This document shows positions 38,812-50,077 of a stretch of DNA of 64,000 nucleotides, in pieces. The stretch lies in assembly GCF_004214935.1 (NCBI RefSeq), contig NZ_SFCC01000022.1, positions 1-64,000 of the forward strand. The letters run 5' to 3'. The stretch is from Amycolatopsis suaedae (lineage in GTDB: Bacteria > Actinomycetota > Actinomycetes > Mycobacteriales > Pseudonocardiaceae). Positions within the stretch are counted from its first letter, which is position 1; every line of letters begins with the position of its first letter. The position numbers and the translations under genes were made by a program. The notes beneath the pieces are model-generated. The model was not told the DNA's origin and made no database searches. It worked only from the letters and a program-made list of their open reading frames with translations.

Positions 38812-39825
38812 TCATCCCCTGATCTTGTCGAGGTCCTGGGCGTACCGGCGGTCCACCAGCGCGGCGAAGTCCACTCTGGACGGAAGCACACCGTCCGCGT
38901 GGAAGGTGTCGGCCAGCTCCTGCTCGGAGGCGACCACCGCGTCGTCGAGCGGCACCGGCAGGTCCGGGCCCCTGGCGACGGCGGCGCGGGCGACGCCGAT
39001 ATCGAGTCCGGTCTCCTTCGCCCAGGTCGCCGCCCATTCGTCGCGGTGACCGTCGGCCCACCTCTCCGCCCTGGCGTGCCGGGTGACGAAGTCGCGGATC
39101 GCGGTGTTGCGCCCGGCGTCGGACAGCGCGGACGTTCCCGCCGCCAGGAACGACAGGCCGTTGGCCGTGCCGTTGCCGTCGGCCAGCACGCGTGCACCCG
39201 CCTCCAGCAGTGCCTGGCTCGTGTACGGGTCCCAGGCGGCCCACGCGTCGATCTGCTTCTGCCGGAACGCGCCGTAGGCGTCGGCCGGCTGCAGGAAGGA
39301 CAGCTTGACGTCCTGTTTGGACAGACCCGCCTTACGCAGGTTCAGCAGCACCTGACCGTGCGCCGAACTCCCCTTCGCCACCCCGATCGTCCTGCCCCGG
39401 AGGTCGGCCACGGTGCGCAGCGGCGAGTCCTTCGGTACGAGAATCGCGTCGCTCTCGGCGTTGCCGCGCGAGGTGGCGACGACCGAGATCTTCGCGCCGG
39501 CCGCCGCGGCGAAGATCGGCGGGGTGTTGCCGACCCTGCCGACGTCGGCACCGCCCGCCGAGACGGCCTCGAGCAGCGGCGGGCCGGAGGTGAACGTCGA
39601 CCACTCGATCCGGTACGGCACGTCGGCGAGCAGCCCGGCCGCGGTGAGCAGCGCCTTGGAACCGCCCTTCTGGTCGGCGACCCGCAGCGTGACCCCTGCC
39701 AGCTCGGCGGCACCGACCGGGGCGGGCACCCCGGTCGTCGCCGGCCCGGCCTGGCCCCCGCAGGCCACCAGCACCGCGGCGGTCAGCAGCCCTGCCGCCG
39801 CCCTGATCGTCCTAAGCGGTCGCAC
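38812..39825 (-). CDS. ssuA: Aliphatic sulfonate ABC transporter, substrate-binding lipoprotein
   Basis: 337 residues. The signal peptide ends in lipobox LVAC with lipid Cys22. It is a type-II periplasmic-binding fold (VADLRGRTIGVAKGSSAHGQVLLNLRKAGL, quoted in part, plus DAWAAWDPYTSQAL), typical of SsuA/TauA. Delivers alkanesulfonates to SsuBC. Overlaps the 3' end of ssuB by 14 bp. Confidence 0.92.
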   Translation of the reverse strand: MRPLRTIRAAAGLLTAAVLVACGGQAGPATTGVPAPVGAAELAGVTLRVADQKGGSKALLTAAGLLADVPYRIEWSTFTSGPPLLEAVSAGGADVGRVGNTPPIFAAAAGAKISVVATSRGNAESDAILVPKDSPLRTVADLRGRTIGVAKGSSAHGQVLLNLRKAGLSKQDVKLSFLQPADAYGAFRQKQIDAWAAWDPYTSQALLEAGARVLADGNGTANGLSFLAAGTSALSDAGRNTAIRDFVTRHARAERWADGHRDEWAATWAKETGLDIGVARAAVARGPDLPVPLDDAVVASEQELADTFHADGVLPSRVDFAALVDRRYAQDLDKIRG

Positions 39826-40543
39826 GTTCGGTCACTCCCAATCCGTTCAGCACCCGGGTTCGCACCTCGGCGTGGTCGGCGGCCCGGCGGGGCCGGGGCC
39901 GCGTCAGGACGTGTTCGGCCGCGATCGCGCCCCGGTCGAGGATCAACACCCGGTCGGCCAGCAGCAACGCCTCGTCGACGTCATGCGTGACCAGCAGGAC
40001 GCTGGGCCGGTGCCGCTGCCACAGGTCGACCACCAGTTCGTGCATGGCGATCCGGGTGAGCGCGTCCAGCGCGCCGAACGGCTCGTCGAGAAGGAGCAGT
40101 TCCGGTTCCCTGACCAGCGCCCTGGCCAGCGAGAGCCGCTGCGCCTCGCCGCCGGAGAGGGTGCGTGGCCAGGCGTCACCGAGTTCTTCCAGACGGACCT
40201 CGGCGAGCGCCCGGTCGGCCAGTGCCCGGTCGTTGCCGCGGTGCCGCCCGCCGGTGTGCAGGCCCAGCACGACGTTGCGCCACACCCGCCGCCACGGCAG
40301 CAGCCTGGGTTGCTGGAACGCCACCGACACGGTGCCGCGCACGGTGACCTCGCCCTCGACGGCGGCGTCCAGTCCGGCCAGCACGCGCAGCAGCGTCGAC
40401 TTGCCCGACCCACTGCGTCCCAGCAGCGCGACGAACTCCCCTGCCGCGATGTCGACGTCCAGTCCGGAAAGGACGGTCCGATCACCGAAGCGTTTCCGGA
40501 GACCCCGGACTTCGACGGTGCCGCCCGTCACGCCGTGCGCCAT
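39812..40543 (-). CDS. ssuB: Aliphatic sulfonate ABC transporter, ATP-binding protein
   Basis: 243 residues. Walker A GRSGSGKST near 44, Q-loop FQQPRLLPW, signature LSGGEAQR, Walker B LLLLDEPFGALD, and H-loop VTHDVDEA. This is the nitrate/sulfonate/taurine subclass. It begins 16 bp inside the permease gene, so it is translationally coupled; a GTG 12 bp downstream (VTGGTV) is an alternative start. Confidence 0.93.
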   Translation of the reverse strand: MAHGVTGGTVEVRGLRKRFGDRTVLSGLDVDIAAGEFVALLGRSGSGKSTLLRVLAGLDAAVEGEVTVRGTVSVAFQQPRLLPWRRVWRNVVLGLHTGGRHRGNDRALADRALAEVRLEELGDAWPRTLSGGEAQRLSLARALVREPELLLLDEPFGALDALTRIAMHELVVDLWQRHRPSVLLVTHDVDEALLLADRVLILDRGAIAAEHVLTRPRPRRAADHAEVRTRVLNGLGVTERATA

Positions 40544-41355
40544 CGCAGCACCCTTCGTTCCAGCAGGCGGACCAGTGCGTCGGTGACCAGGCCGAGCGTC
40601 GCGTACACGATGAGACCGACCACGATCACGTCGGTGCGCAGGAACTCCCTGGCATTGTTGATCAGGTACCCGAGCCCGGCGTCGGCGTTGACGGTCTCCC
40701 CCACGATCAGCGCGAGCCAGGCGATCCCCAGCGACTGCCGCAGCCCGACCAGTGCCTGCGGCACCGCGGACGGCAGGATGACGTGCCGGAGCCGTTCCAG
40801 CCGGGTGTAACCGAGGGCGGTGGTCGCCTCGACCAGCTGGCTTTCGGTGTTGCGAATGCCGGCGTGCACGTTGAGGTAGAGCGGGAACGCCACGCCGAGC
40901 GCCACCAGGATGATCTTGGGCTGCTCGCCGATGCCGAACCACAGGATCAGCAGCGGGATCAACCCGAGAAACGGCAGGGTACGCAGCATCTGGACCGGCG
41001 GGTCGATCAGCACGTCGGCCCACCTGGACAGCCCCGCGACGATGCCCAGCAGCACTGCGATTCCGGCGCCCAGCAGGAAACCCAGCCCCACCCTGCCGAT
41101 CGACACGGCGAACGCCTGACCCAGTTCACCGGAGCGCGCCGTCTCCACGCCCGCCTGGAGCACGGTCCACGGCGAACTCAGCTTGTCCGGCGACAGCAAG
41201 CCGGTCGAGCTGGCCACCTGCCACAGCACGAGCAGGGCGACGGGACTGATCCACCTGCGCAGATCCGGCAGCCGGATCCGGCTACGCTCCGGCGTTCCCG
41301 GCTCGGTGACGGGGTCCTGCGACCGCACTGGGGGGTCCTGGACGGAAACGGACAC
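40528..41355 (-). CDS. ssuC: Aliphatic sulfonate ABC transporter, permease
   Basis: 275 residues with about six membrane helices. The EAA-type loop VEATTALGYTRLERLRHVILPSAVPQ is the ATPase contact in BPD_transp_1 permeases. First gene of the operon. GTG start after GGAGAGG. The 160 bp upstream carries an inverted repeat (CCCACATC/GATGTGGG), a possible regulatory site. Confidence 0.93.
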   Translation of the reverse strand: MSVSVQDPPVRSQDPVTEPGTPERSRIRLPDLRRWISPVALLVLWQVASSTGLLSPDKLSSPWTVLQAGVETARSGELGQAFAVSIGRVGLGFLLGAGIAVLLGIVAGLSRWADVLIDPPVQMLRTLPFLGLIPLLILWFGIGEQPKIILVALGVAFPLYLNVHAGIRNTESQLVEATTALGYTRLERLRHVILPSAVPQALVGLRQSLGIAWLALIVGETVNADAGLGYLINNAREFLRTDVIVVGLIVYATLGLVTDALVRLLERRVLRWRTA

Positions 41356-41514: not shown

Positions 41515-42243
41515 TCAGACGCCGAAACGCGTCAGCAGGGCGCGGACGGCGGCCGGGTCCTCGACATGGGCGTTGTGCCCGAGACCGGCGAGGCTGACCG
41601 CGTCCGGGTCGAGTTCACGCAGCTGCCCGGGACGGCTCATCGGGTCGGTCTCGCCTGCCGCCAGCACGACCGGGCACCGCGCGGTGGCGAGCAGCGCGGG
41701 CATGTCCGGCGCGCCGACGCCGAACACGGGCGGGTCCAGCGCGAGGCGCCAGCCGTCCTCGGTCCGGCGAAGCCCGGCGGGGTCGGCCGGCGCGATGCCG
41801 AGCAGGCCGGAGACCTTGAGGTAGGCCTGTACGGCCTGCTCCCTGGTCTCGAAAACACGCACCGGACGGGCCGCGAACGCCGCCGCGCGGGCCAGGTCGT
41901 CCTGGCTCCACTCCACCTTCACGCCGAGGGCCAGTACGCCTGCGACGTCGACGTCGTACCTGCCGGACGCGAGTTCGAGCGCGAGCACGCCGCCCAGCGA
42001 ATGCCCGGCGACGACCAGCGGGCCGGTGCCCGGCAGCGCCCGCGCCAGCGCCGCCGCGACGGTCTGGAAGCTGTACCGCGGCAGGGGCGAGGACGTGCCG
42101 TGGCCGGGCAGGTCGGGCACCAGGACACGCCGGCCGAGCAGGCCGGACAACGGCTCCCACACGGCGCCGGTCGCGCCCAGCCCGTGCAGGAGGAGAACGG
42201 CCGGCTCACCCTCGCCTGCGGTGCGCATGTTCAGCGTGTCCAT
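41515..42243 (-). CDS. Alpha/beta-hydrolase
   Basis: 242 residues. Oxyanion region LLLHGLGATGAVW at about 17-29, nucleophile elbow GHSLGG near 82-87, acid Asp in AAGETDPMS, and His in LGHNAHVEDP near the end. Cytoplasmic, substrate unknown. Divergent from the P450 across 45 bp, so the two may be controlled together. An ATG 15 bp downstream (MRTAGEG) is another possible start. Confidence 0.88.
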   Translation of the reverse strand: MDTLNMRTAGEGEPAVLLLHGLGATGAVWEPLSGLLGRRVLVPDLPGHGTSSPLPRYSFQTVAAALARALPGTGPLVVAGHSLGGVLALELASGRYDVDVAGVLALGVKVEWSQDDLARAAAFAARPVRVFETREQAVQAYLKVSGLLGIAPADPAGLRRTEDGWRLALDPPVFGVGAPDMPALLATARCPVVLAAGETDPMSRPGQLRELDPDAVSLAGLGHNAHVEDPAAVRALLTRFGV

Positions 42244-42276
42244 CCGGGCAGCCTGCCCGAGACCGCCCCGCGCGGC

Positions 42277-42282
42277 TAGGGT
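42277..42282 (+). promoter_or_regulatory. -10 box of leaderless P450 gene
   Basis: TAGGGT ends 6 nt before the P450 GTG, and there is no ribosome site. Confidence 0.5.
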
Positions 42283-42288
42283 CGGTTC

Positions 42289-43551
42289 GTGGGAATCACC
42301 GATCCGGACACCTACCTGCGGGGTGTCCCCTACGACGAGCTGGCGCGGCTGCGGCACGCATCGCCGGTGGTCCGCGTCGACGACTTCTGGGCCGTGCTGC
42401 GGCACGCCGACGTACGGCGGGTGCTGCGTGATCCGCGCGTGTTCTCCTCGCAGCTCGGCGGGACGCAGATCCGCGACCCGGCCACCGACGGCGACCTGGC
42501 CTACGTCCGCCGGATGATGCTCAACATGGACCCGCCCGAGCACGGCAGGCTACGCGGGCTGCTCACCAAGGCGTTCACGCCGCGCGCCGTCGCGAAGCTG
42601 ACCGAGCAGATCGACTCGCAGGCACGGATGCTCGTCGCCGCCGTCGCCGGCCGGGGCGAGTGCGACTTCGCGAAGGTCGCCGCCGACCTGCCGCTGCTCA
42701 CCCTCGCCGCGGTGTTCGGGGTGCCGGAACAGGACCGGCGGCTGATGTACGACTGGAGCAACCGCGTGATCGGCTACCAGGACGCCGAGTACGCGGTCAG
42801 CGCGACCGTGGACGCTTCCTCGGTGACCGGCCTCGCGCGGGCGGCGCTCGCCCTGCGCCCGTCTCCCGGCCCGGACGGCTCGATGCCGGATCCGCGCACC
42901 CGCGCCGGGATGCCGGACCTCTACGCGTACGCGAACGCCCTCGGCGACTACAAGCGCTCGCACCCGGGCGACGACGTGATGAGCAACCTGATGCGGCACG
43001 TCGGCGACGACGGCGGCCGCGTCTCGCTCGCCGAGTTCGAGAATCTCTTCTGGCTGTTCTCCGTGGCGGGTAACGAAACCCTGCGCAACGGCCTGCCCGG
43101 CGGGATGCTGGCGCTGCTGACCCATCCCGGGCAGTACCGGCGGCTGCTGGCCGACCGGTCGCTGCTGCCGTCTGCGGTCGAGGAGATGCTGCGCTGGTGG
43201 ACGCCGGTGATGCACTTCCGCCGAACGGCCACCACCGACGTCCGGCTGTCCGGTGTGGACATCCGGGCCGGTGACAAGGTCGTGGTCTGGTTCTCCTCGG
43301 CCAACCGCGACCCCGCGGTGTTCGCCGATCCGGACGCCTTCGACGTGGCCCGGTCCCCGAACGACCACCTGACCTTCGGTCACGGCCCGCACTTCTGCCT
43401 CGGCGCGCACCTGGCCCGGGTCCAGCTGCGGGCGATGTTCGGCGCGGTGCTCGACCTGCTCGGCGAGGTGTCGCTCGCCGGCGAGCCGGTACGGCTGCGG
43501 TCGAACTTCCAGAACGGCCTCAAGTCCCTGCCCATCCGGTGGTCCCGCTGA
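42289..43551 (+). CDS. Cytochrome P450
   Basis: 420 residues, soluble bacterial class. I-helix A-G-N-E-T at 260-264 (Glu variant of the acid/alcohol pair), ExxR at Glu299-Arg302, and heme loop FGHGPHFCLGAH with Cys370 as thiolate ligand. The MNMDPPEH-type C-helix region and overall pattern resemble CYP124/125-like enzymes acting on lipids or terpenoids; this is a guess. It needs ferredoxin partners not present in the window. Its 3' end overlaps the convergent PLP-enzyme gene by 32 bp. Confidence 0.95.
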   Translation: MGITDPDTYLRGVPYDELARLRHASPVVRVDDFWAVLRHADVRRVLRDPRVFSSQLGGTQIRDPATDGDLAYVRRMMLNMDPPEHGRLRGLLTKAFTPRAVAKLTEQIDSQARMLVAAVAGRGECDFAKVAADLPLLTLAAVFGVPEQDRRLMYDWSNRVIGYQDAEYAVSATVDASSVTGLARAALALRPSPGPDGSMPDPRTRAGMPDLYAYANALGDYKRSHPGDDVMSNLMRHVGDDGGRVSLAEFENLFWLFSVAGNETLRNGLPGGMLALLTHPGQYRRLLADRSLLPSAVEEMLRWWTPVMHFRRTATTDVRLSGVDIRAGDKVVVWFSSANRDPAVFADPDAFDVARSPNDHLTFGHGPHFCLGAHLARVQLRAMFGAVLDLLGEVSLAGEPVRLRSNFQNGLKSLPIRWSR

Positions 43552-44548
43552 CGATGCGGTCGACCGGGGACCGAGCCCAGCGCATGCGGGACCAGGGCAG
43601 CGCCAGATCGTCCAGTGTGGACACCTGCCGGGGGCTGAGGCTGTCGGCGGGCGGGGCGTCCCGGTGGCGGGCGAAGACGGAGTCGACGTAGCGGTGACCG
43701 GTGTCGGCGGCGATGAACAGCACCGTGCGGGCATCGTCGTGGCGGCGTTCCCAGCGTGCGGCGAGGTAGGCCGCGCCGGTCGACAGGCCCGCGAAGACCG
43801 CGTGCCTGCGCAGCAGGTCCACGCTGCCGGCCAGGGCGGCGGTGAAGCCGACCCAGTGGATGGTGTCGTACAGGGTGTGGTCGACGTTGCCGAACGGGAT
43901 GGAGCTGCCGATCCCGGCGATGATGATGTCCGGGTCGGACACGGCCTCACTGCGGAAGGTGACGCTGCCGAACGGCTGCACTCCCGCGAGGGCGACGTCG
44001 GGTGAGCGCTCGCGCAGGTAGGTGGCCAGCGCTCCGGTGGAGGCCCCCGAGCCGACCCCGCCGACGACGGTGAGCGGACCGTCCACCTCACCGGCGACCC
44101 GCTCGGCGATCGCGCGGTAGCCGAGGTAGTGGATGTCGTCGTGGTACTGGCGCATCCAGTGGTAGCCGGGGTTGTCCCGCAGGATTTCCCGCACCCTCGC
44201 CACCCGGCGGCTCTGGTCGAGCTTGAGGCTGGCCGAGGGCTCCATCTGTTCGAGGTGGGCGCCGAGGACGGCCAGCTGGGTGCGCAGCGTGTGGTCGACG
44301 GTGGTGGACCCGACGATGTGGCAGCGCATGCCGTAGCGGTGGCAGGCCAGCGCGAGCGCGTAGGCGTAGATGCCGCTGGAGGAGTCCAGCAGCGTGTCGC
44401 CGGGCCGCACCCTGCCGGTGCCGAGCAGATGCTCGACCGCGGCCAGCGCGGAGACGACCTTCATCGTCTCAAACCGCAGGCAGACGAGTCCGTCGTCCAG
44501 GCGCACCAGGTCCGGCCGGCCGATCGCCTCGGCGATGTGGTCGTCCAC
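43520..44548 (-). CDS. Cysteine-synthase-like PLP enzyme of a putative metallophore operon
   Basis: 342 residues, fold type II PLP enzyme. The likely Schiff-base Lys is Lys30 in FETMKVVSAL. The substrate loop reads LDSSSGIYAYALA, where cysteine synthases usually have SSGNxG. The phosphate-binding loop is VGSGASTGAL. Such enzymes perform beta-replacement on O-acetyl- or O-phosphoserine; SbnA, which makes N-(1-carboxy-2-carboxyethyl)-2,3-diaminopropionate for staphyloferrin B, is a distant model. GTG start with GAAGGGA upstream. It overlaps the kinase gene by 80 bp. Product unknown. Confidence 0.85.
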   Translation of the reverse strand: MDDHIAEAIGRPDLVRLDDGLVCLRFETMKVVSALAAVEHLLGTGRVRPGDTLLDSSSGIYAYALALACHRYGMRCHIVGSTTVDHTLRTQLAVLGAHLEQMEPSASLKLDQSRRVARVREILRDNPGYHWMRQYHDDIHYLGYRAIAERVAGEVDGPLTVVGGVGSGASTGALATYLRERSPDVALAGVQPFGSVTFRSEAVSDPDIIIAGIGSSIPFGNVDHTLYDTIHWVGFTAALAGSVDLLRRHAVFAGLSTGAAYLAARWERRHDDARTVLFIAADTGHRYVDSVFARHRDAPPADSLSPRQVSTLDDLALPWSRMRWARSPVDRIVSGTTGWAGT

Positions 44549-45452
44549 GTTTGTCGTCCCTTCTGGTGCTGAACAGCCGGGTGACCGGGATGTCGTGCCT
44601 GCGCAGCGCGCGCACGCACCGCCGCAGCCTGCCGTCGAGACCGGCCGCGTCCGGGTCGAAGAGCACGCCCGCGACGTTGCCGCTGTGCGCCACCTGGACA
44701 CCGGCGGCGCCGCTGCGCCCCGCGATGGCGACCAGATCGGTGAACTCCGCCTTGGGCAGGACGCGCTGGTTGTAGCGGGCACTGTCGGTGCTGACCCTGC
44801 CGAGCAGGACGACGTCGGAGTCGGCGATTGCCCGGCGCAGCCGCGCCCGCAGCCGCTCGAAGTCACGCACGTCGTCCTCGCGGAAGACGTGTGGCGCGAT
44901 GCCCAGCGTGTCCACCGGGCGCCCGCCGCCGGTCAGGCAGCTGACCACGACGGCGGACGGCAGGGCGTGCCCGAGGTCCTCCAGCACGCGGCCTTCCCGC
45001 TGGGCGAACAGCCTCGGCCGGTCGTCGAGCATGAGCGGGTCGCAGGCGGTCTCGGCCCGCACCGTCAGCCGGGCCACCGTCGCCGGCGGCAGCGTGACGG
45101 CGTAACTCGCCGCCACGGCGCGGATCGTGGCGATGATGTCGCTTGTGGACGATCCCATGCCCAGGCCGAGCGGGATGTCGCTGTGCAGCCGCAGCAGCCC
45201 GCCGCACTCGCGCCGGCCGGTCAGCCGTGCGCACTCGGCGACCGCCAGCACGGCCGCGCCGGCCGCCTTGGTCCGGCCGGCGGGGCTGACGGTGACCCGC
45301 CGTCCCGGCAGCGGGGTGAACTCGGCCCGGGTGCCGGGGCCGGCCATCGGCAGGGTGACCAGCCCGCGGCACGGCCGTCCGTCGGCGTCGAGGAAGACGC
45401 CCTGCAGAATCTCGCCGTGGTGACAGCAGGCATGTCCGATGCCAACGCTCAT
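44469..45452 (-). CDS. GHMP-family kinase, PduX (L-threonine kinase)-like
   Basis: 327 residues. Residues 7-17 read HACCHHGEILQG, as in PduX-like kinases. GHMP motif 2 PLGLGMGSSTSD lies around 98-109 and binds the ATP phosphates. VQVAHSGNVAGVLFD near 270 matches the C-terminal motif 3 area. By family it phosphorylates the hydroxyl of an amino acid such as Thr or Ser, which could feed the neighbouring PLP enzyme with an O-phospho-amino acid (inference). ATG overlaps the upstream stop (ATGA). The C-terminal 27 residues are Arg-rich and overlap the next gene. Confidence 0.82.
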   Translation of the reverse strand: MSVGIGHACCHHGEILQGVFLDADGRPCRGLVTLPMAGPGTRAEFTPLPGRRVTVSPAGRTKAAGAAVLAVAECARLTGRRECGGLLRLHSDIPLGLGMGSSTSDIIATIRAVAASYAVTLPPATVARLTVRAETACDPLMLDDRPRLFAQREGRVLEDLGHALPSAVVVSCLTGGGRPVDTLGIAPHVFREDDVRDFERLRARLRRAIADSDVVLLGRVSTDSARYNQRVLPKAEFTDLVAIAGRSGAAGVQVAHSGNVAGVLFDPDAAGLDGRLRRCVRALRRHDIPVTRLFSTRRDDKRGRPHRRGDRPAGPGAPGRRTRLPAV

Positions 45453-46255
45453 GCGCCGGTCTCCGCGCGGTAGCGGTAGAGCGTGGTGGGCTCGGCGCTG
45501 AACTGCGAGAACGGGAACGGCTCGGCGGAAAGGGCGCTCACCCCGGCGCCGAGAAAGGCGCGGGCGACGGCGCTGCCGGACTGCGCGTAGACGATCAGCG
45601 GAACCGCCCGCTTCACGCACCGCCGCAGGATCTCGTCGAAGCTGCCGTTGCTCAGCGTCATCCCGGTGGCGACGACCACGTCGGCGACGTCGAGCACCTC
45701 GGCCATCGAGTCGGTGACCGGGTCGCCCCACTGGGTGGTGCGGAGGTTGAGGTCGCACGGCAGGCAGTCGCCGCCACGTTCCCGGATGGCCGCCACCAGC
45801 GGGTTGACCACGCCGATCAGCCCGACCTTGGCGCCGGGTTCGATGCCGAGCAGTCCCGCGACAGCCGCGTCCCGCGCCACCGCCCGGGTTTCCGGCGTTC
45901 CGGCGGGCAGTTCCACCCGCTCCGCGCGCGGGTCGTCCCGGTGCGGCAGCGCCTGGCCGAGGTAGGCGTCCAGCGCGGCGATGCGCAGCGGCAGCGGGCC
46001 TTCGCGCAGCAGCGTGTCGAGCGTGCTGCCGGAGGCGCCGGAACAGATCGCCGGGTCGACCTCCCCGGCCTCGAACGCGCAGCCGCCGAACGCCTGTCCA
46101 CATCGGACAAGCAGGTACTGGTTGCGGTAGGTGACGCCGCCACCGGCCAGCCGGGTCCCGTGGTGCAGCCAGAACACGCTGGTGGCCACCAGGTCGGCGG
46201 CCGGGGTGCCGTGCCTGCCGTCGAGGACGTCGGCGACGAGCTGGTCGACGCTCAC
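45449..46255 (-). CDS. DUF4213/DUF364 Rossmann-like protein (putative heavy-metal chelation)
   Basis: 268 residues. An N-terminal enolase-like DUF4213 portion (LVATSVFWLHHGTRLAGG, GTLDTLLREG-type helix) is followed by a Rossmann-like DUF364 half: KVGLIGVVNPLVAAIRERG, then DVADVVVATGMTLSNGSFDEIL. The family is annotated as putative heavy-metal chelation, with no proven reaction. Several Cys lie at RCGQAFGGCAFEAGEVDPAICSG (quoted in part). GTG start overlaps the methyltransferase stop. Central member of the divergent metal-box operon. Confidence 0.82.
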   Translation of the reverse strand: MSVDQLVADVLDGRHGTPAADLVATSVFWLHHGTRLAGGGVTYRNQYLLVRCGQAFGGCAFEAGEVDPAICSGASGSTLDTLLREGPLPLRIAALDAYLGQALPHRDDPRAERVELPAGTPETRAVARDAAVAGLLGIEPGAKVGLIGVVNPLVAAIRERGGDCLPCDLNLRTTQWGDPVTDSMAEVLDVADVVVATGMTLSNGSFDEILRRCVKRAVPLIVYAQSGSAVARAFLGAGVSALSAEPFPFSQFSAEPTTLYRYRAETGA

Positions 46256-46974
46256 GCGGCGGCTCCCCGGTGAAAGCGGAACAGGTAGGTCAGCACCCCG
46301 TCGTGCCAGTCGTGCCGCAACCGCACCTCGGGGGTGAACCCGTGATCCACGGCGTGGCCGACGATCGCGCGCAGGTCCGCGGTGTTGGAGGCGATGACGA
46401 ACACCTCACCGCCCGGGGCGAGCAGGTCACGCCCGGCGAGCTGGGCGAAGAACCGCTCCAGCAGCGGCGCGCCGAGGCACACGTTGCGCACGACGTCGGC
46501 GTCCTCGCTGACGACCTGGCTGACCGCGGGCGGGTTGAAGGTCACCACGTCGAGCGGGCGGCCGTCGGGGAAGCCGTCGAAGACGTCGGCGACCAGCGGG
46601 ACGAACTCGGTGCCCTCGGCCGGCCCGACCAGCCGGTCGTAGTGCCGCGTGGTGGCGGCGACGCTGTCCGGGTGGACGTCGAGGGCGTACACCTCGCGGG
46701 CGCCACGCAGTCCGGCGACGACCGCCTCGACGCCGAGCCCGGCGCCCATCGCGGCGTAGCGGCGGCCCCGGACGTCGATCTCGCCGTCGAGCAGCCGCTG
46801 GTGGATCATCCGGCTGGTCTCGCCGGGCAGGAACACCCCGGGCGGGACGTCGAACACCCACCCGTTCCACTCGTAGCGGCGAACGCTGTGCAGATCGGCC
46901 TTCGGCTGGTTGAGCGCGATGATCTGCTCGGGGGGCAACGGTGGTGGCAGCTCGTCGAGCAACACCTTGTCCAC
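46252..46974 (-). CDS. Class I SAM-dependent methyltransferase, first gene of the metal-box operon
   Basis: 240 residues. SAM motif I AMGAGLGVEAVVAGLRGA, acidic motif II VYALDVHPDS, and motif IV VVTFNPPA, as in PrmC/L11-type N- or O-methyltransferases. The FDVPPGVFLPGETS segment before motif I is also typical of that group. I chose the GTG at 46974, with AAGGGA 6 nt upstream, over a TTG at 46998. The start lies about 45 bp from a perfect Fur/Zur-type palindrome. Target small molecule unknown. Confidence 0.85.
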   Translation of the reverse strand: MDKVLLDELPPPLPPEQIIALNQPKADLHSVRRYEWNGWVFDVPPGVFLPGETSRMIHQRLLDGEIDVRGRRYAAMGAGLGVEAVVAGLRGAREVYALDVHPDSVAATTRHYDRLVGPAEGTEFVPLVADVFDGFPDGRPLDVVTFNPPAVSQVVSEDADVVRNVCLGAPLLERFFAQLAGRDLLAPGGEVFVIASNTADLRAIVGHAVDHGFTPEVRLRHDWHDGVLTYLFRFHRGAAA

Positions 46975-47016
46975 AAAGGGTCCCTTCCGTGGTGGCAATC
47001 GACCGGGATACTACAA

Positions 47017-47033
47017 ACGATAATCATTATCGT
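47017..47033. promoter_or_regulatory. Fur/Zur-family box in a divergent promoter
   Basis: ACGATAATCATTATCGT is a perfect 8-1-8 palindrome. Its GATAAT-N-ATTATC core equals the Fur-superfamily 7-1-7 core. It is AT-rich in a 70 % GC region and sits midway between the methyltransferase (46974) and the MFS gene (47085). It most likely controls both under iron or zinc. A weaker similar stretch (ACGGTTTTCATTT, 47061-47073) follows it. Confidence 0.75.
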
Positions 47034-47084
47034 CTAGGTAGACCCCGAGAAGTAACGACAACGGTTTTCATTTAAGGTGTGCGC

Positions 47085-48296
47085 ATGCTGCGTGACTTCG
47101 CCTTCCTGCGCCTGTGGGCGGGCACCACCGCGTCCGGACTGGCGACCTGGGCGTTGCCCTTCGTGCTCGGTCTCGCCGTGCTGGACCGCACGTTGAGCGC
47201 CGGCGGCCTCGGGCTGGTCCTGGCCACGAGGACGGTCGGCTTCCTGGCGGCGGTGCCGGTCAGCGGGGTTCTGGCCGACCGGTACTCCCGGCGCGCGGTG
47301 GTGTTCTGGTCGAGCGCCGCCGCCGCGGTCGCCGCACCGGTGATCGCGGCCGGGCTGGGCTGGTCGGTGCCGCTGATGGCCGTCGCGGCCGCGGTGGCCG
47401 GGGCAGGCCAGGGCGCGTGCCGTCCCGCGTTCCAGGCGCTGACCGCCGAGGTCGTCGAGGAGTCGCGCAGGCAACGGGCCAACGCCGCGATCACCCTGGC
47501 CGTGCGGGTCACCACGCTGGTCGCGCCCGCCACGGCCGCCCTGCTGGCCACCGTCCTCGACACGCGGGCACTGCTGATCGGCATCGGCCTGCTCTGGCTG
47601 GCCGCCGCGCTGCTGCCGCCGGCGGGAACGGCCACGCCACCGGTCGGCGAGCGCACCCGGGTCGCGTTCGTCGCCGAGTTCGCCGACGGTGTCCGCGAGG
47701 CCCGCAGGCACCCGTGGTTCCTCGCCGGGCTGGGCGCGCTGACCGCCGTGATCGCCACCGGCTACTCGGCGACCGGGGTCGTGCTGCCGCTGGTCAGCCG
47801 GGACACCTACGGCAGCGAGGCCGTCCTGGCCGGCGCGACCACGGCCTACATCGTCGGCGCGCTCGCCGGGGCGCTGGTCGTCGCGCGGTGGCGTCCCCGC
47901 GCACAGGGCTGGGCTGCCCTGTCCGGCCTGGCACTGTACGGATTCGCCCCACTCAGCCTCCTGCTCCCAGTGCACCCTGCGGTGGTGATCGCCGCCTACG
48001 TGCTGGCCGGGATCGGGATCGAACTGTTCAACGTCCCGTGGTTCACCGCGATCCAGCGCGAGGTCGACCCCGGCAAGCTCGCCCGGGTGTCCTCATTGGA
48101 CTTCCTGCTGTCCTACGGCCTCGCTCCCCTCGGCCTCGCGCTCATCGCTCCCGCCGTCGACGCCTTCGGCGCCCCGGCCGTCCTCGGTGCCTGCGCGCTC
48201 GTCTGCTTCGCCGCGCCGGCCGCCGCCGCGCTCGTCCCCAGCGCCCGCGGGTTCTCCCGCCCCGCCGAAGCGTGCCGGTCTACCGTGCAGCAATGA
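47085..48296 (+). CDS. MFS transporter, EntS-like (MFS_3), putative metallophore exporter
   Basis: 403 residues, about 12 membrane helices. The N-terminus FLRLWAGTTASGLATWALPF and the loop GVLADRYSRRAVVF are characteristic of the MFS_3/EntS group, which includes enterobactin exporters. The ATG at 47085 has AAGG 7 nt upstream; a GTG at 47079 is less likely. It faces the methyltransferase operon across the Fur/Zur-type box, so I infer that it exports the operon's product. Macrolide-efflux-type MFS is the alternative. Confidence 0.87.
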   Translation: MLRDFAFLRLWAGTTASGLATWALPFVLGLAVLDRTLSAGGLGLVLATRTVGFLAAVPVSGVLADRYSRRAVVFWSSAAAAVAAPVIAAGLGWSVPLMAVAAAVAGAGQGACRPAFQALTAEVVEESRRQRANAAITLAVRVTTLVAPATAALLATVLDTRALLIGIGLLWLAAALLPPAGTATPPVGERTRVAFVAEFADGVREARRHPWFLAGLGALTAVIATGYSATGVVLPLVSRDTYGSEAVLAGATTAYIVGALAGALVVARWRPRAQGWAALSGLALYGFAPLSLLLPVHPAVVIAAYVLAGIGIELFNVPWFTAIQREVDPGKLARVSSLDFLLSYGLAPLGLALIAPAVDAFGAPAVLGACALVCFAAPAAAALVPSARGFSRPAEACRSTVQQ

Positions 48297-48417
48297 GACC
48301 GGAGCCCGGGCAGGGTGCTGCGGAATCGCTGAGGACCGGTGTCGAATCCGGGACGGGCCGTTCGTGGAGGGGGTGAGCGGTCGCCACGGGGCGCCGCCAG
48401 GACCACGCGGAGTTGAG

Positions 48418-49251
48418 ATGTCGCACCCGGAACCCGTAGCCCGCCGCATGTACGACCTGATCGAGCCCATCGGCCTGGTGCCCTACTTCGCCGACGAGTC
48501 GGACGAGGCCCTGATCGCGCTGGGCCTGCGTAACCAGTGGGACGCCTACTTCGCCGGCCGGGCCGCGCCGTTCGGCCGGGCGATGCCGGCCGAGGCGGTG
48601 CACGCGATCTTCTACAACTTCGCCCCCGGCGAGGTGGCACGCCACATCCCGCGGATCTGGGACCTGACCACGCCCGAAGCCGCGCTGGCCGCGCGCGAAC
48701 GGGGCTGTGTGGCGGGGCTGCGGCGGATCCTCGGGGACCTCGCCGACGCCCCGGGCGTCGCGCGCGCCGGGGACCTCCTGCTCAGGGCGGCGACCAGCGC
48801 ACCCGTGGAGGGCCGCGCCCTCTTCGCCGCCCTGCGCACGATCCCGGTGCCGCGCGAGCCCGTGGCCCGGCTGTGGCACGCGGCCACGCTGCTGCGCGAG
48901 CACCGCGGCGACGGCCATGTCGTGGCGCTGGTGGCCGAGGGCGTCGGCGGGACGGAGGCCCATGTGCTCCACGCCCTGTCCGTCGATCTGCCCGCGAAGG
49001 AGTTCGGCCGGGTACACCACCTTCCCGCCGCGCAGCTGGACGCGGTCATCGACGGCATGCGCGCCCGCGGCCTCATCGGGGCCGACGGCTGGCTCACCGA
49101 CGCGGGCCGGGCCACCAAGCAGCGGGTCGAGGCGCTGACCGACCGGCTCGCGGAGGTGCCCTACAACGCCCTGAGCCCCGGCGAGCTCGACGGTCTGGCC
49201 ACCGACCTCGAACCGCTCTCGGCTGCCATCCGGAGGGTCATTCCCTGGTAG
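48418..49251 (+). CDS. SCO6745-family protein
   Basis: 277 residues, soluble, mostly helical. It contains VARRMYDLIEPIGLVPYFADES at the N-terminus, YFAGRAAPFGRAMPAEAVHAIFYNF in the first third, and a C-terminal half with a winged-helix-like segment (LIGADGWLTDAGRATKQRVEALTDRLAEVPY, quoted in part). This family is common in actinobacteria (SCO6745-like) and may be a helix-turn-helix protein; function unproven. ATG with GGAG 5 nt upstream. Convergent with the hydrolase. Confidence 0.8.
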   Translation: MSHPEPVARRMYDLIEPIGLVPYFADESDEALIALGLRNQWDAYFAGRAAPFGRAMPAEAVHAIFYNFAPGEVARHIPRIWDLTTPEAALAARERGCVAGLRRILGDLADAPGVARAGDLLLRAATSAPVEGRALFAALRTIPVPREPVARLWHAATLLREHRGDGHVVALVAEGVGGTEAHVLHALSVDLPAKEFGRVHHLPAAQLDAVIDGMRARGLIGADGWLTDAGRATKQRVEALTDRLAEVPYNALSPGELDGLATDLEPLSAAIRRVIPW

Positions 49252-49252
49252 C

Positions 49253-50050
49253 TCAGGGCGTGAAGAAGCCGGCGAGCAGGCCGCCCAGGATCTTCGGATC
49301 GGCGATGTGAGTCTGGCCTTCGACGATCCGGCGTTCCGCCTTCGGGACCGCCGCGGCGATCGCGTCGGCGGCGTTGTCGAAGAAGCCCGGCTGAAGGCCG
49401 CCCATGTGCGGATCGGCGACTCCACCGGTCGCCACCAGCACCGGCTGCGTGATGGTCGCCAGCCGGGCGACCGGTGGACGCCCGTCGCCCAGGCAGGCCG
49501 CGTCGTAGGCGAGCGTGTGCGCGAGCCCTTCCAGTCCGGGCCAGAACGACGACGCGCGTGCTCCCGCGATGTCGTCGTCGGAGGAGCCGGCCAGCCGCAT
49601 GAACAGTTCGACCGCCTCGCCGCGCCTGCCCTCGGCGAGCACCGCGGTCAGCCGGTCGACGTAGGCCGACCAGTGCGGCGCCATGGCGTCGTCCAGGTAC
49701 GGAACCTCGTAGACCGCGATCCTGTCCACGGCGAGCCCGGCGGCGGCCGCCTCGAGTGCCAGCGCGCCGCCGGACGACGCCCCGAACAGGTGCGCCGATC
49801 CGCCCGCCTCGCCGATCAGCGCGGCGATGTCGTCGATCTCGCGTTCCACCGCGTACGGGGCGGTGTCGCCACTGTCGCCCCGGCCGCGGCGCGCGTAGTT
49901 GTAGACGGTGAACCGCCCCGCCAGCTCGGGCACGAGCGCGGCGTTCTCCGAGCCGTCGTCGAGCCCGCCGCCCACCAGGATGACCGCCGGACCGGTCCCG
50001 CTGCGCCGGTACGCGATCGACGTTCCGTCCTTCGACGTCACAGAAGTCAT
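49253..50050 (-). CDS. Alpha/beta-hydrolase
   Basis: 265 residues. Oxyanion segment VILVGGGLDDGS, nucleophile elbow GASSGG near residue 95, and catalytic His in EGQTHIADP near the end. Resembles small haloperoxidase/esterase-like hydrolases. The ATG at 50050 follows GAGAGGGG. It lies 27 bp after an MFS gene, at the end of the run that starts with the DGPF/ECF42 genes. Confidence 0.88.
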   Translation of the reverse strand: MTSVTSKDGTSIAYRRSGTGPAVILVGGGLDDGSENAALVPELAGRFTVYNYARRGRGDSGDTAPYAVEREIDDIAALIGEAGGSAHLFGASSGGALALEAAAAGLAVDRIAVYEVPYLDDAMAPHWSAYVDRLTAVLAEGRRGEAVELFMRLAGSSDDDIAGARASSFWPGLEGLAHTLAYDAACLGDGRPPVARLATITQPVLVATGGVADPHMGGLQPGFFDNAADAIAAAVPKAERRIVEGQTHIADPKILGGLLAGFFTP

Positions 50051-50077
50051 ACCCAACCCCTCTCAAGTGCTCCTACC

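Follow-up and report, generated by a model that had tools for sequence, protein, structure and literature searches.

A candidate Zur-controlled gene cluster of Amycolatopsis suaedae with a likely role in making a small zinc metallophore

What is the function of five small genes in Amycolatopsis suaedae that surround a member of the enzyme family DUF364 and are read in two directions from a perfect palindrome? The genes lie in a stretch of 64,000 nucleotides, which we call the window; it lies on contig 14 of the 32 that make up the 7.5-Mb genome. An initial annotation of the window proposed that a methyltransferase, a DUF4213/DUF364 protein, a PduX-like kinase, and a cysteine-synthase-like enzyme make a metal-binding compound that an EntS-like exporter secretes. 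We found all five genes at the locus, each of them intact. Sequence comparisons suggest that this is likely a zinc-starvation operon for the synthesis and export of a small metallophore that is secreted to bind zinc (a zincophore). The strongest support within this reading is for control by Zur and for the metallophore role, and we consider the two together to be probable.

Co-conservation of the cluster and its variants

We scanned the DUF364 protein against species genomes and recovered 253 relatives. The locus counts given here are for the best 80 of these 253 and describe close relatives, with distant DUF364 proteins lying outside the sample. Presence of each gene was scored by tblastn at an E value of ≤1e-15. 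The DUF364 gene and the gene for the pyridoxal 5'-phosphate (PLP) enzyme lie on one strand within 4 kb at 78 of the 80 loci, and the remaining two (L076 and L093) are short stretches of 11.6 and 3.4 kb. The kinase is present at 67 loci, the methyltransferase at 40, and the major facilitator superfamily (MFS) exporter at 66. We also found an importer, comprising a FecCD permease (72 loci), an ATP-binding cassette (ABC) ATPase (75 loci, a loose count because the superfamily is large), and a Peripla_BP_2 lipoprotein (71 loci). Under stricter clustering, the permease was found at 70 loci and the ATPase at 52, and the lipoprotein fell into two clusters of 40 and 23.

The kinase and methyltransferase occur together at 30 loci, the kinase without the methyltransferase at 37, the methyltransferase without the kinase at 10, and neither at 3. 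From these presence counts, we take the core to be DUF364, the PLP enzyme, and transport, with the kinase usual and the methyltransferase optional. The fixed five-gene pathway of the initial annotation is thus too rigid, given the 40 loci with a methyltransferase and the 13 from which the kinase is missing. Co-conservation in other Pseudonocardiales and in Streptomyces had been named beforehand as a check on the metallophore proposal. We found it there and in other actinobacteria too, and most relatives' loci carry the FecCD-type importer as well, so the proposal passes this test. We concluded that co-conservation of the cluster is well supported at the sequence level. Culturable Streptomyces are among the carriers of the cluster; a DUF364 protein that is 77% identical is recorded for Streptomyces ambofaciens ATCC 23877. 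The spread of the cluster is patchy, with a kinase match (E ≤1e-20) in 30 of the 249 genomes of the order, the A. suaedae genome included. Outside the cluster and shadow open reading frames (ORFs), the most frequent family, a TauD-like gene, was found at 9 of the 80 loci; by tblastn, a TauD-like dioxygenase lies beside the cluster at 13 (L039 and 12 more), and a hydroxylating step in some lineages is possible.

A cluster of a second type, seen for instance at L081, L100, L110, L115, and L116, has the gene order methyltransferase, PLP enzyme, sometimes PhyH, DUF364, and MFS; its MFS protein is of another kind, and it has no kinase. At three of the 80 loci (L086, L100, and L115), a NikA-type SBP_bac_5/Opp importer is joined to a cluster of this type. 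As a second set, we examined 20 stretches chosen by way of the methyltransferase, at least 5 of which repeat loci named here, and found methyltransferase, PLP enzyme, and DUF364 together in 19. At L110 and L116 and in one stretch of the second set (L195), genes for a UbiE-like S-adenosylmethionine (SAM) enzyme, MetK, MtnA, MtnB, and ARD are divergent to the methyltransferase, PLP enzyme, and DUF364 genes, with Zur-type boxes between the two groups. MetK, MtnA, and MtnB passed their NCBIfam cutoffs, and ARD passed that of Pfam.

Zur-type boxes and the genes they face

At the window locus, four minus-strand genes overlap, by 4 bp between methyltransferase and DUF364, 4 bp between DUF364 and kinase, and 80 bp between kinase and PLP enzyme. 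The MFS gene (47085 to 48296, plus strand) is divergent from this run, and two Zur-type boxes lie between the methyltransferase and MFS starts. The initial annotation had described overlapping minus-strand genes that face the exporter across a perfect palindrome; we found the same arrangement, with refined coordinates and with palindrome arms of 8-1-8. Box 1 is the 17-bp palindrome ACGATAATCATTATCGT (47017 to 47033) and stands 43 bp upstream of the start of the methyltransferase gene; matches with ≤3 mismatches averaged 0.00 in shuffled windows. The 7.5-Mb genome has a single exact copy of the 13-bp core of box 1, GATAATNATTATC, and one more site that differs from it by 1 mismatch. Box 2, CGACAACGGTTTTCA (47056 to 47070), lies upstream of the MFS gene, 14 bp from its ATG, and had been overlooked.

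Zur motifs are published for Streptomyces coelicolor (tGaNNatSatNNtCa; PMC5472717) and for Mycobacterium smegmatis (PMC7174638). The S. coelicolor consensus failed as a discriminating test inside the window, where other sites score better than box 1. Because of this, we used the mycobacterial core, which was derived outside this family, and applied it with a background count. Box 1 has 1 mismatch to this core and box 2 has none. Across the 64-kb window, only these two sites match at ≤1 mismatch, versus 10 sites at ≤2 and 60 at ≤3. We then took the 300 bp upstream of the MFS or methyltransferase gene, a region present in full at 76 of the 80 loci, and found a site with ≤2 mismatches at 61 of these 76 loci versus 137 of 4,267 control windows (320 bp each, taken elsewhere in these loci). 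The S. coelicolor motif, at ≤2 mismatches and no more than 500 bp from a cluster start, was found at 60 of the 80 loci, mostly at the MFS gene (53 loci). Several loci without an upstream site (L081, L091, L100, L110, and L115) have perfect matches elsewhere, near other cluster genes. We also built a position-score matrix from the boxes of these loci; it is circular for them, and no count that we argue from depends on it alone.

Elsewhere in the A. suaedae genome, a search with the box pattern found 19 sites per strand versus 5 for a reversed control. Among the places inspected, comparable boxes precede an ABC-3 (ZnuB-type) permease gene with a divergent ATPase gene (L146) and L33/S14 ribosomal genes (L149). 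Zinc transporter and ribosomal-protein genes are known kinds of Zur target, and Zur regulons also include enzymes (PMC6103462). Three further box-like sites (L120, L121, and L122) adjoin no metal-related genes in the stretches read. Among the relatives, a FUR-family gene and CobW lie beside the cluster at L056 and L091, and an ABC-3 permease gene lies beside it at L046. The A. suaedae genome encodes a FUR-family protein (G000:C8:26051-26458) that is 53% identical to the L056 protein, the next matches being 29 and 27% identical, and its gene stands directly behind an ArsR-like ORF. We infer that these FUR-family proteins are Zur. The genome encodes at least two further FUR-family proteins.

The palindrome had initially been called a Fur/Zur-type box. 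This call stands and can be narrowed to Zur by the M. smegmatis core, the recurrence at 61 of 76 loci, and the targets in the same genome. We set aside control by Fur or IdeR, as the boxes fit the published actinobacterial Zur motifs and recur at Zur-type targets. Zinc control of the locus is, on these comparisons, well supported.

The FecCD importer found at most relatives' loci has no copy at the window locus. The best FecCD match elsewhere in the genome is 63% identical, versus 47% for the next, and it heads an unlinked operon (G000:C28:192077-194882) with an ATPase and a lipoprotein (67, 68, and 54% identity, respectively, for the three proteins over their aligned parts). To judge from these matches, the export-import pair exists in A. 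suaedae but is split. The importer escaped the initial annotation because this genome keeps it elsewhere. The MFS protein (405 or 403 amino acids, with an alternative GTG start at 47079) matches PF07690 (E 1.3e-33). Its description as EntS-like found no support at the family level, with 26.7 bits against the NCBIfam EntS model and a cutoff of 324.

The enzymes and a predicted pathway

The PLP enzyme (43520 to 44548, minus strand; GTG start, 342 amino acids) is a fold type II protein of the cysteine-synthase superfamily (PF00291, E 9.1e-33). Its best NCBIfam match is the SbnA family (TIGR03945), at 131.6 bits (E 3e-38), which does not reach the cutoff of 349.95; cysteine synthase models all gave <82 bits, and none was above its cutoff. 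By these scores, it is a relative of the SbnA family and not a member. R132, Y152, and S185 of SbnA reportedly bind O-phosphoserine selectively (PMC12414870). We found that the PLP lysine K30, R115, and Y135 (K31, R116, and Y136 in the alignment) are invariant in 17 of 17 sequences and match SbnA K47, R132, and Y152. An SbnA-like β-replacement had been proposed for this enzyme. That proposal gains support from the conserved PLP lysine and from two of the O-phosphoserine residues; the third, with Gly in place of S185, does not fit it.

The kinase (44469 to 45452, minus strand) is a GHMP kinase (PF00288) with HHGE and GLGMGSS-type motifs that are invariant in 15 aligned sequences, and we predict that it acts on an amino-acid hydroxyl. 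PduX is a threonine kinase. The "PduX-like" label comes from the names of relatives ("propanediol utilization" and, once, "Threonine kinase"), and NCBIfam gave no PduX match. Profiles of mevalonate, homoserine, and other GHMP kinases match about equally weakly, none near its cutoff.

The DUF364 enzyme (45449 to 46255, minus strand; PF04016, 47.5 bits versus a cutoff of 23) is, in our alignments, the best-conserved component of the cluster, at 70 to 78% identity to 19 aligned relatives. A structure model based on 20 sequences has a pLDDT of 89.9, and the top six rows of its Foldseek matches are filled by the two DUF364 proteins with solved structures, PH1506 (3npg) and Dhaf4260 (3l5o). The model aligns with these over its length at a TM-score of 0.55 to 0.64, a root mean square deviation of about 6 Å, and 14 to 17% identity. 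The window protein shares family and overall fold with the two at that low identity. DUF4213, the N-terminal enolase-like domain that the initial annotation had included, gave no Pfam match, although the model aligns along its length with both solved structures; the DUF364 assignment itself is borne out by PF04016. Pocket and genome context led the authors of the first DUF364 structure to propose an enzyme for metal chelators that acts by condensation or hydrolysis, and the available text of their paper reports no biochemical function (PMC2954201).

The methyltransferase gene (46252 to 46974, minus strand) has a GTG start, which we picked by alignment of relatives, and a possible alternative TTG start at 46998. 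The protein is a SAM-dependent enzyme of the HemK/N6AMT1 kind, carries an NPPA motif (FNPPA), and has N6AMT1/HemK as its nearest solved sequences. The folds nearest to its model are those of N6AMT1/KMT9, a gentamicin methyltransferase, and the carbamoyl N-methyltransferase Asc-Orf2. We concluded from the motif and the model that it is probably an N-methyltransferase.

According to the model that we propose, plentiful zinc would keep Zur on the two boxes and silence both divergent promoters, and scarce zinc would release it. The kinase would then phosphorylate serine (or threonine). The SbnA-like enzyme would eliminate the phosphate to give an aminoacrylate and add the amine of an amino acid, yielding an aminopolycarboxylate. 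Because no SbnB-like or lyase-like partner was seen, we suggest that this product is kept as the chelating backbone. DUF364, the signature enzyme, would carry out the next joining or hydrolytic step, and the methyltransferase would N-methylate the product in some lineages as optional tailoring. The MFS protein would export the product, and the unlinked lipoprotein, FecCD, and ATPase operon would return its metal complex, with zinc as the presumed metal.

We compared this scheme with known systems. In the staphyloferrin B pathway, SbnA belongs to the closest NCBIfam family of the window enzyme, which keeps its PLP lysine and the R132 and Y152 equivalents; in contrast, the window enzyme scores below the cutoff, has Gly for S185, and would be under zinc rather than iron control. 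No SbnB-like dehydrogenase gave a Pfam match among the nine genes of 41518 to 50056, and none was recognized among the recurrent families of the 80 loci, as judged from sequence without a scan of every ORF. The same nine genes and recurrent families yielded no nonribosomal peptide synthetase (NRPS), NRPS-independent siderophore (NIS) synthetase, or opine dehydrogenase, and for these genes and families the initial claim that such genes are absent is correct. Staphylopine and pseudopaline, the opine metallophores, are likewise small zinc metallophores made by few enzymes, and some relatives of the second cluster type have NikA-type importers; however, neither a CntL-like nor an opine-dehydrogenase-like gene was noted among the scanned window genes or the recurrent families, and the enzyme folds differ. 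DUF364 and a GHMP kinase are not known to be part of the clusters for the aminopolycarboxylates ethylenediaminedisuccinate (EDDS; Amycolatopsis japonicum) and ethylenediaminesuccinic acid hydroxyarginine (EDHA; Streptomyces). Both are, like the window cluster, actinobacterial and without an NRPS. EDDS is under Zur control (PMC6103462), and the EDHA cluster was missed by older antiSMASH (PMC8914351). Coelibactin of S. coelicolor belongs to a Zur-controlled actinobacterial zincophore cluster (PMC5472717), as we propose here, but is described as a nonribosomal peptide (PMC3430247), and the window locus has no NRPS.

We tentatively suggest, as a prospect that we hold to be somewhat less likely than not, that a widespread actinobacterial class of zinc metallophores is built by DUF364 and an SbnA-like PLP enzyme, for which a dedicated amino-acid kinase usually supplies the substrate. 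Such a class would follow a logic outside the NRPS, NIS, opine, and SbnA/SbnB routes and would give DUF364 its first pathway-level role. What would be new relative to known kinds is a zinc metallophore cluster in which DUF364 joins an SbnA-like enzyme that has no SbnB partner. If our reading is right, three to four small enzymes suffice for many Streptomyces and Pseudonocardiales to make a zinc scavenger, along a path unexpected in genome mining for synthetases. DUF364, labeled "putative heavy-metal chelation" since the 2010 structure (PMC2954201), would also gain a pathway with guessable, assayable substrates. Small aminopolycarboxylates such as EDDS are of interest as biodegradable chelators (PMC10311521). 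We recognized no earlier description of the cluster in literature searches, whose reach left out most subscription journals.

Alternative explanations and neighboring genes

Several observations weigh against a zinc metallophore at this locus. The kinase is absent from all 7 same-genus genomes among the matches listed. The position of SbnA S185 is Gly (G167 in alignment numbering) in 17 of 17 sequences. No site with ≤2 mismatches to the mycobacterial core was found in the 300-bp upstream region of 15 of 76 loci. Box 1 has 2 mismatches in the 11 specified positions of the S. coelicolor motif versus 1 for three unrelated sites in the window, and 1 of 20 permuted half-sites of that motif reached 40 of 80 loci versus 47 for the true motif. 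The Zur-like site of the importer operon itself is weak (13.8 versus 22.3 for box 1, by the matrix from these loci), and the FecCD importer could transport something else.

The compound could be a metallophore for iron, copper, or several metals, with the boxes bound by another FUR-family protein, of which the genome has at least two more. Ferric siderophores, B12, and haem are the best-known cargoes of FecCD/Peripla_BP_2 importers. The binding protein of one relative matches F420-0 as well as siderophore/B12/haem types in NCBIfam, all below cutoff. We nevertheless think this improbable, as the boxes fit published actinobacterial Zur motifs and recur at the ABC-3 and ribosomal-paralogue targets, and some relatives have a FUR-family gene and CobW, or else an ABC-3 permease gene, beside the cluster. 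The locus might instead be a Zur-induced, zinc-sparing metabolic operon that makes, for example, cysteine or a cofactor by a low-zinc route. Zur regulons hold enzymes and ribosomal proteins as well (PMC6103462), and the PLP enzyme falls within the cysteine-synthase superfamily. A secreted and reimported compound better suits the exporter at 66 loci and the FecCD importer at 72, and we regard a sparing role as quite doubtful.

Other explanations keep a zinc metallophore and change its chemistry. The kinase may act on threonine, with the PLP enzyme giving a 2,3-diaminobutyrate-type backbone, as in friulimicin- and pacidamycin-type pathways. We consider this possible, though not the likely case: the PduX and "Threonine kinase" names of relatives point to it, but mevalonate, homoserine, and other GHMP kinase profiles match about equally, and the absence of the kinase from the stretch examined at 13 loci would suit O-phosphoserine from serine synthesis. 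The SAM enzyme of the window could also transfer an aminocarboxypropyl group, leaving methylthioadenosine and giving a nicotianamine- or staphylopine-like product. Methionine salvage implies the release of methylthioadenosine, and the MetK-MtnA-MtnB-ARD run lies across Zur-type boxes from methyltransferase, PLP enzyme, and DUF364 in three Streptomyces-type loci (L110, L116, and L195); the NikA-type importers at L086, L100, and L115 would fit as well. However, all three salvage loci carry the second, UbiE-like SAM enzyme, which the window lacks and which is a likelier source, and loci with the methyltransferase but without the UbiE-like enzyme show no salvage genes. Moreover, the window methyltransferase folds like N-methyltransferases, with TYW2 first at rank 48 among the matches listed. 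We therefore marked down aminocarboxypropyl transfer by this enzyme, which is unlikely, and the salvage genes hint at such chemistry in those three cousins.

Around the cluster, a cytochrome P450 gene (42289 to 43551, plus strand) overlaps the 3' end of the PLP enzyme gene convergently by 32 bp. We ruled it out as a tailoring enzyme, with weak matches (30 to 32% identity) at 3 of 80 loci only. Directly downstream of the MFS gene is an SCO6745-family (HTH_67) gene (48418 to 49251) that is not recurrent in the 80 loci. An ABC ATPase gene and a BPD_transp_1 permease gene (39812 to 41355) lie upstream of an alpha/beta hydrolase gene; the permease matched at 1 of 80 loci, at 29% identity, and was ruled out as a cluster member.

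Elsewhere in the same genome (G000:C26, L143:4252-14276), a perfect Zur-type palindrome lies before a 63-amino-acid ORF with two NALVHNPFA repeats and no Pfam family. This ORF is followed by genes for a YcaO protein, a nitroreductase-family protein, a FecCD/ATPase pair, and an MFS protein, the last with a further box at L143:13002. This second locus is possibly a Zur-controlled ribosomal-peptide metallophore cluster.

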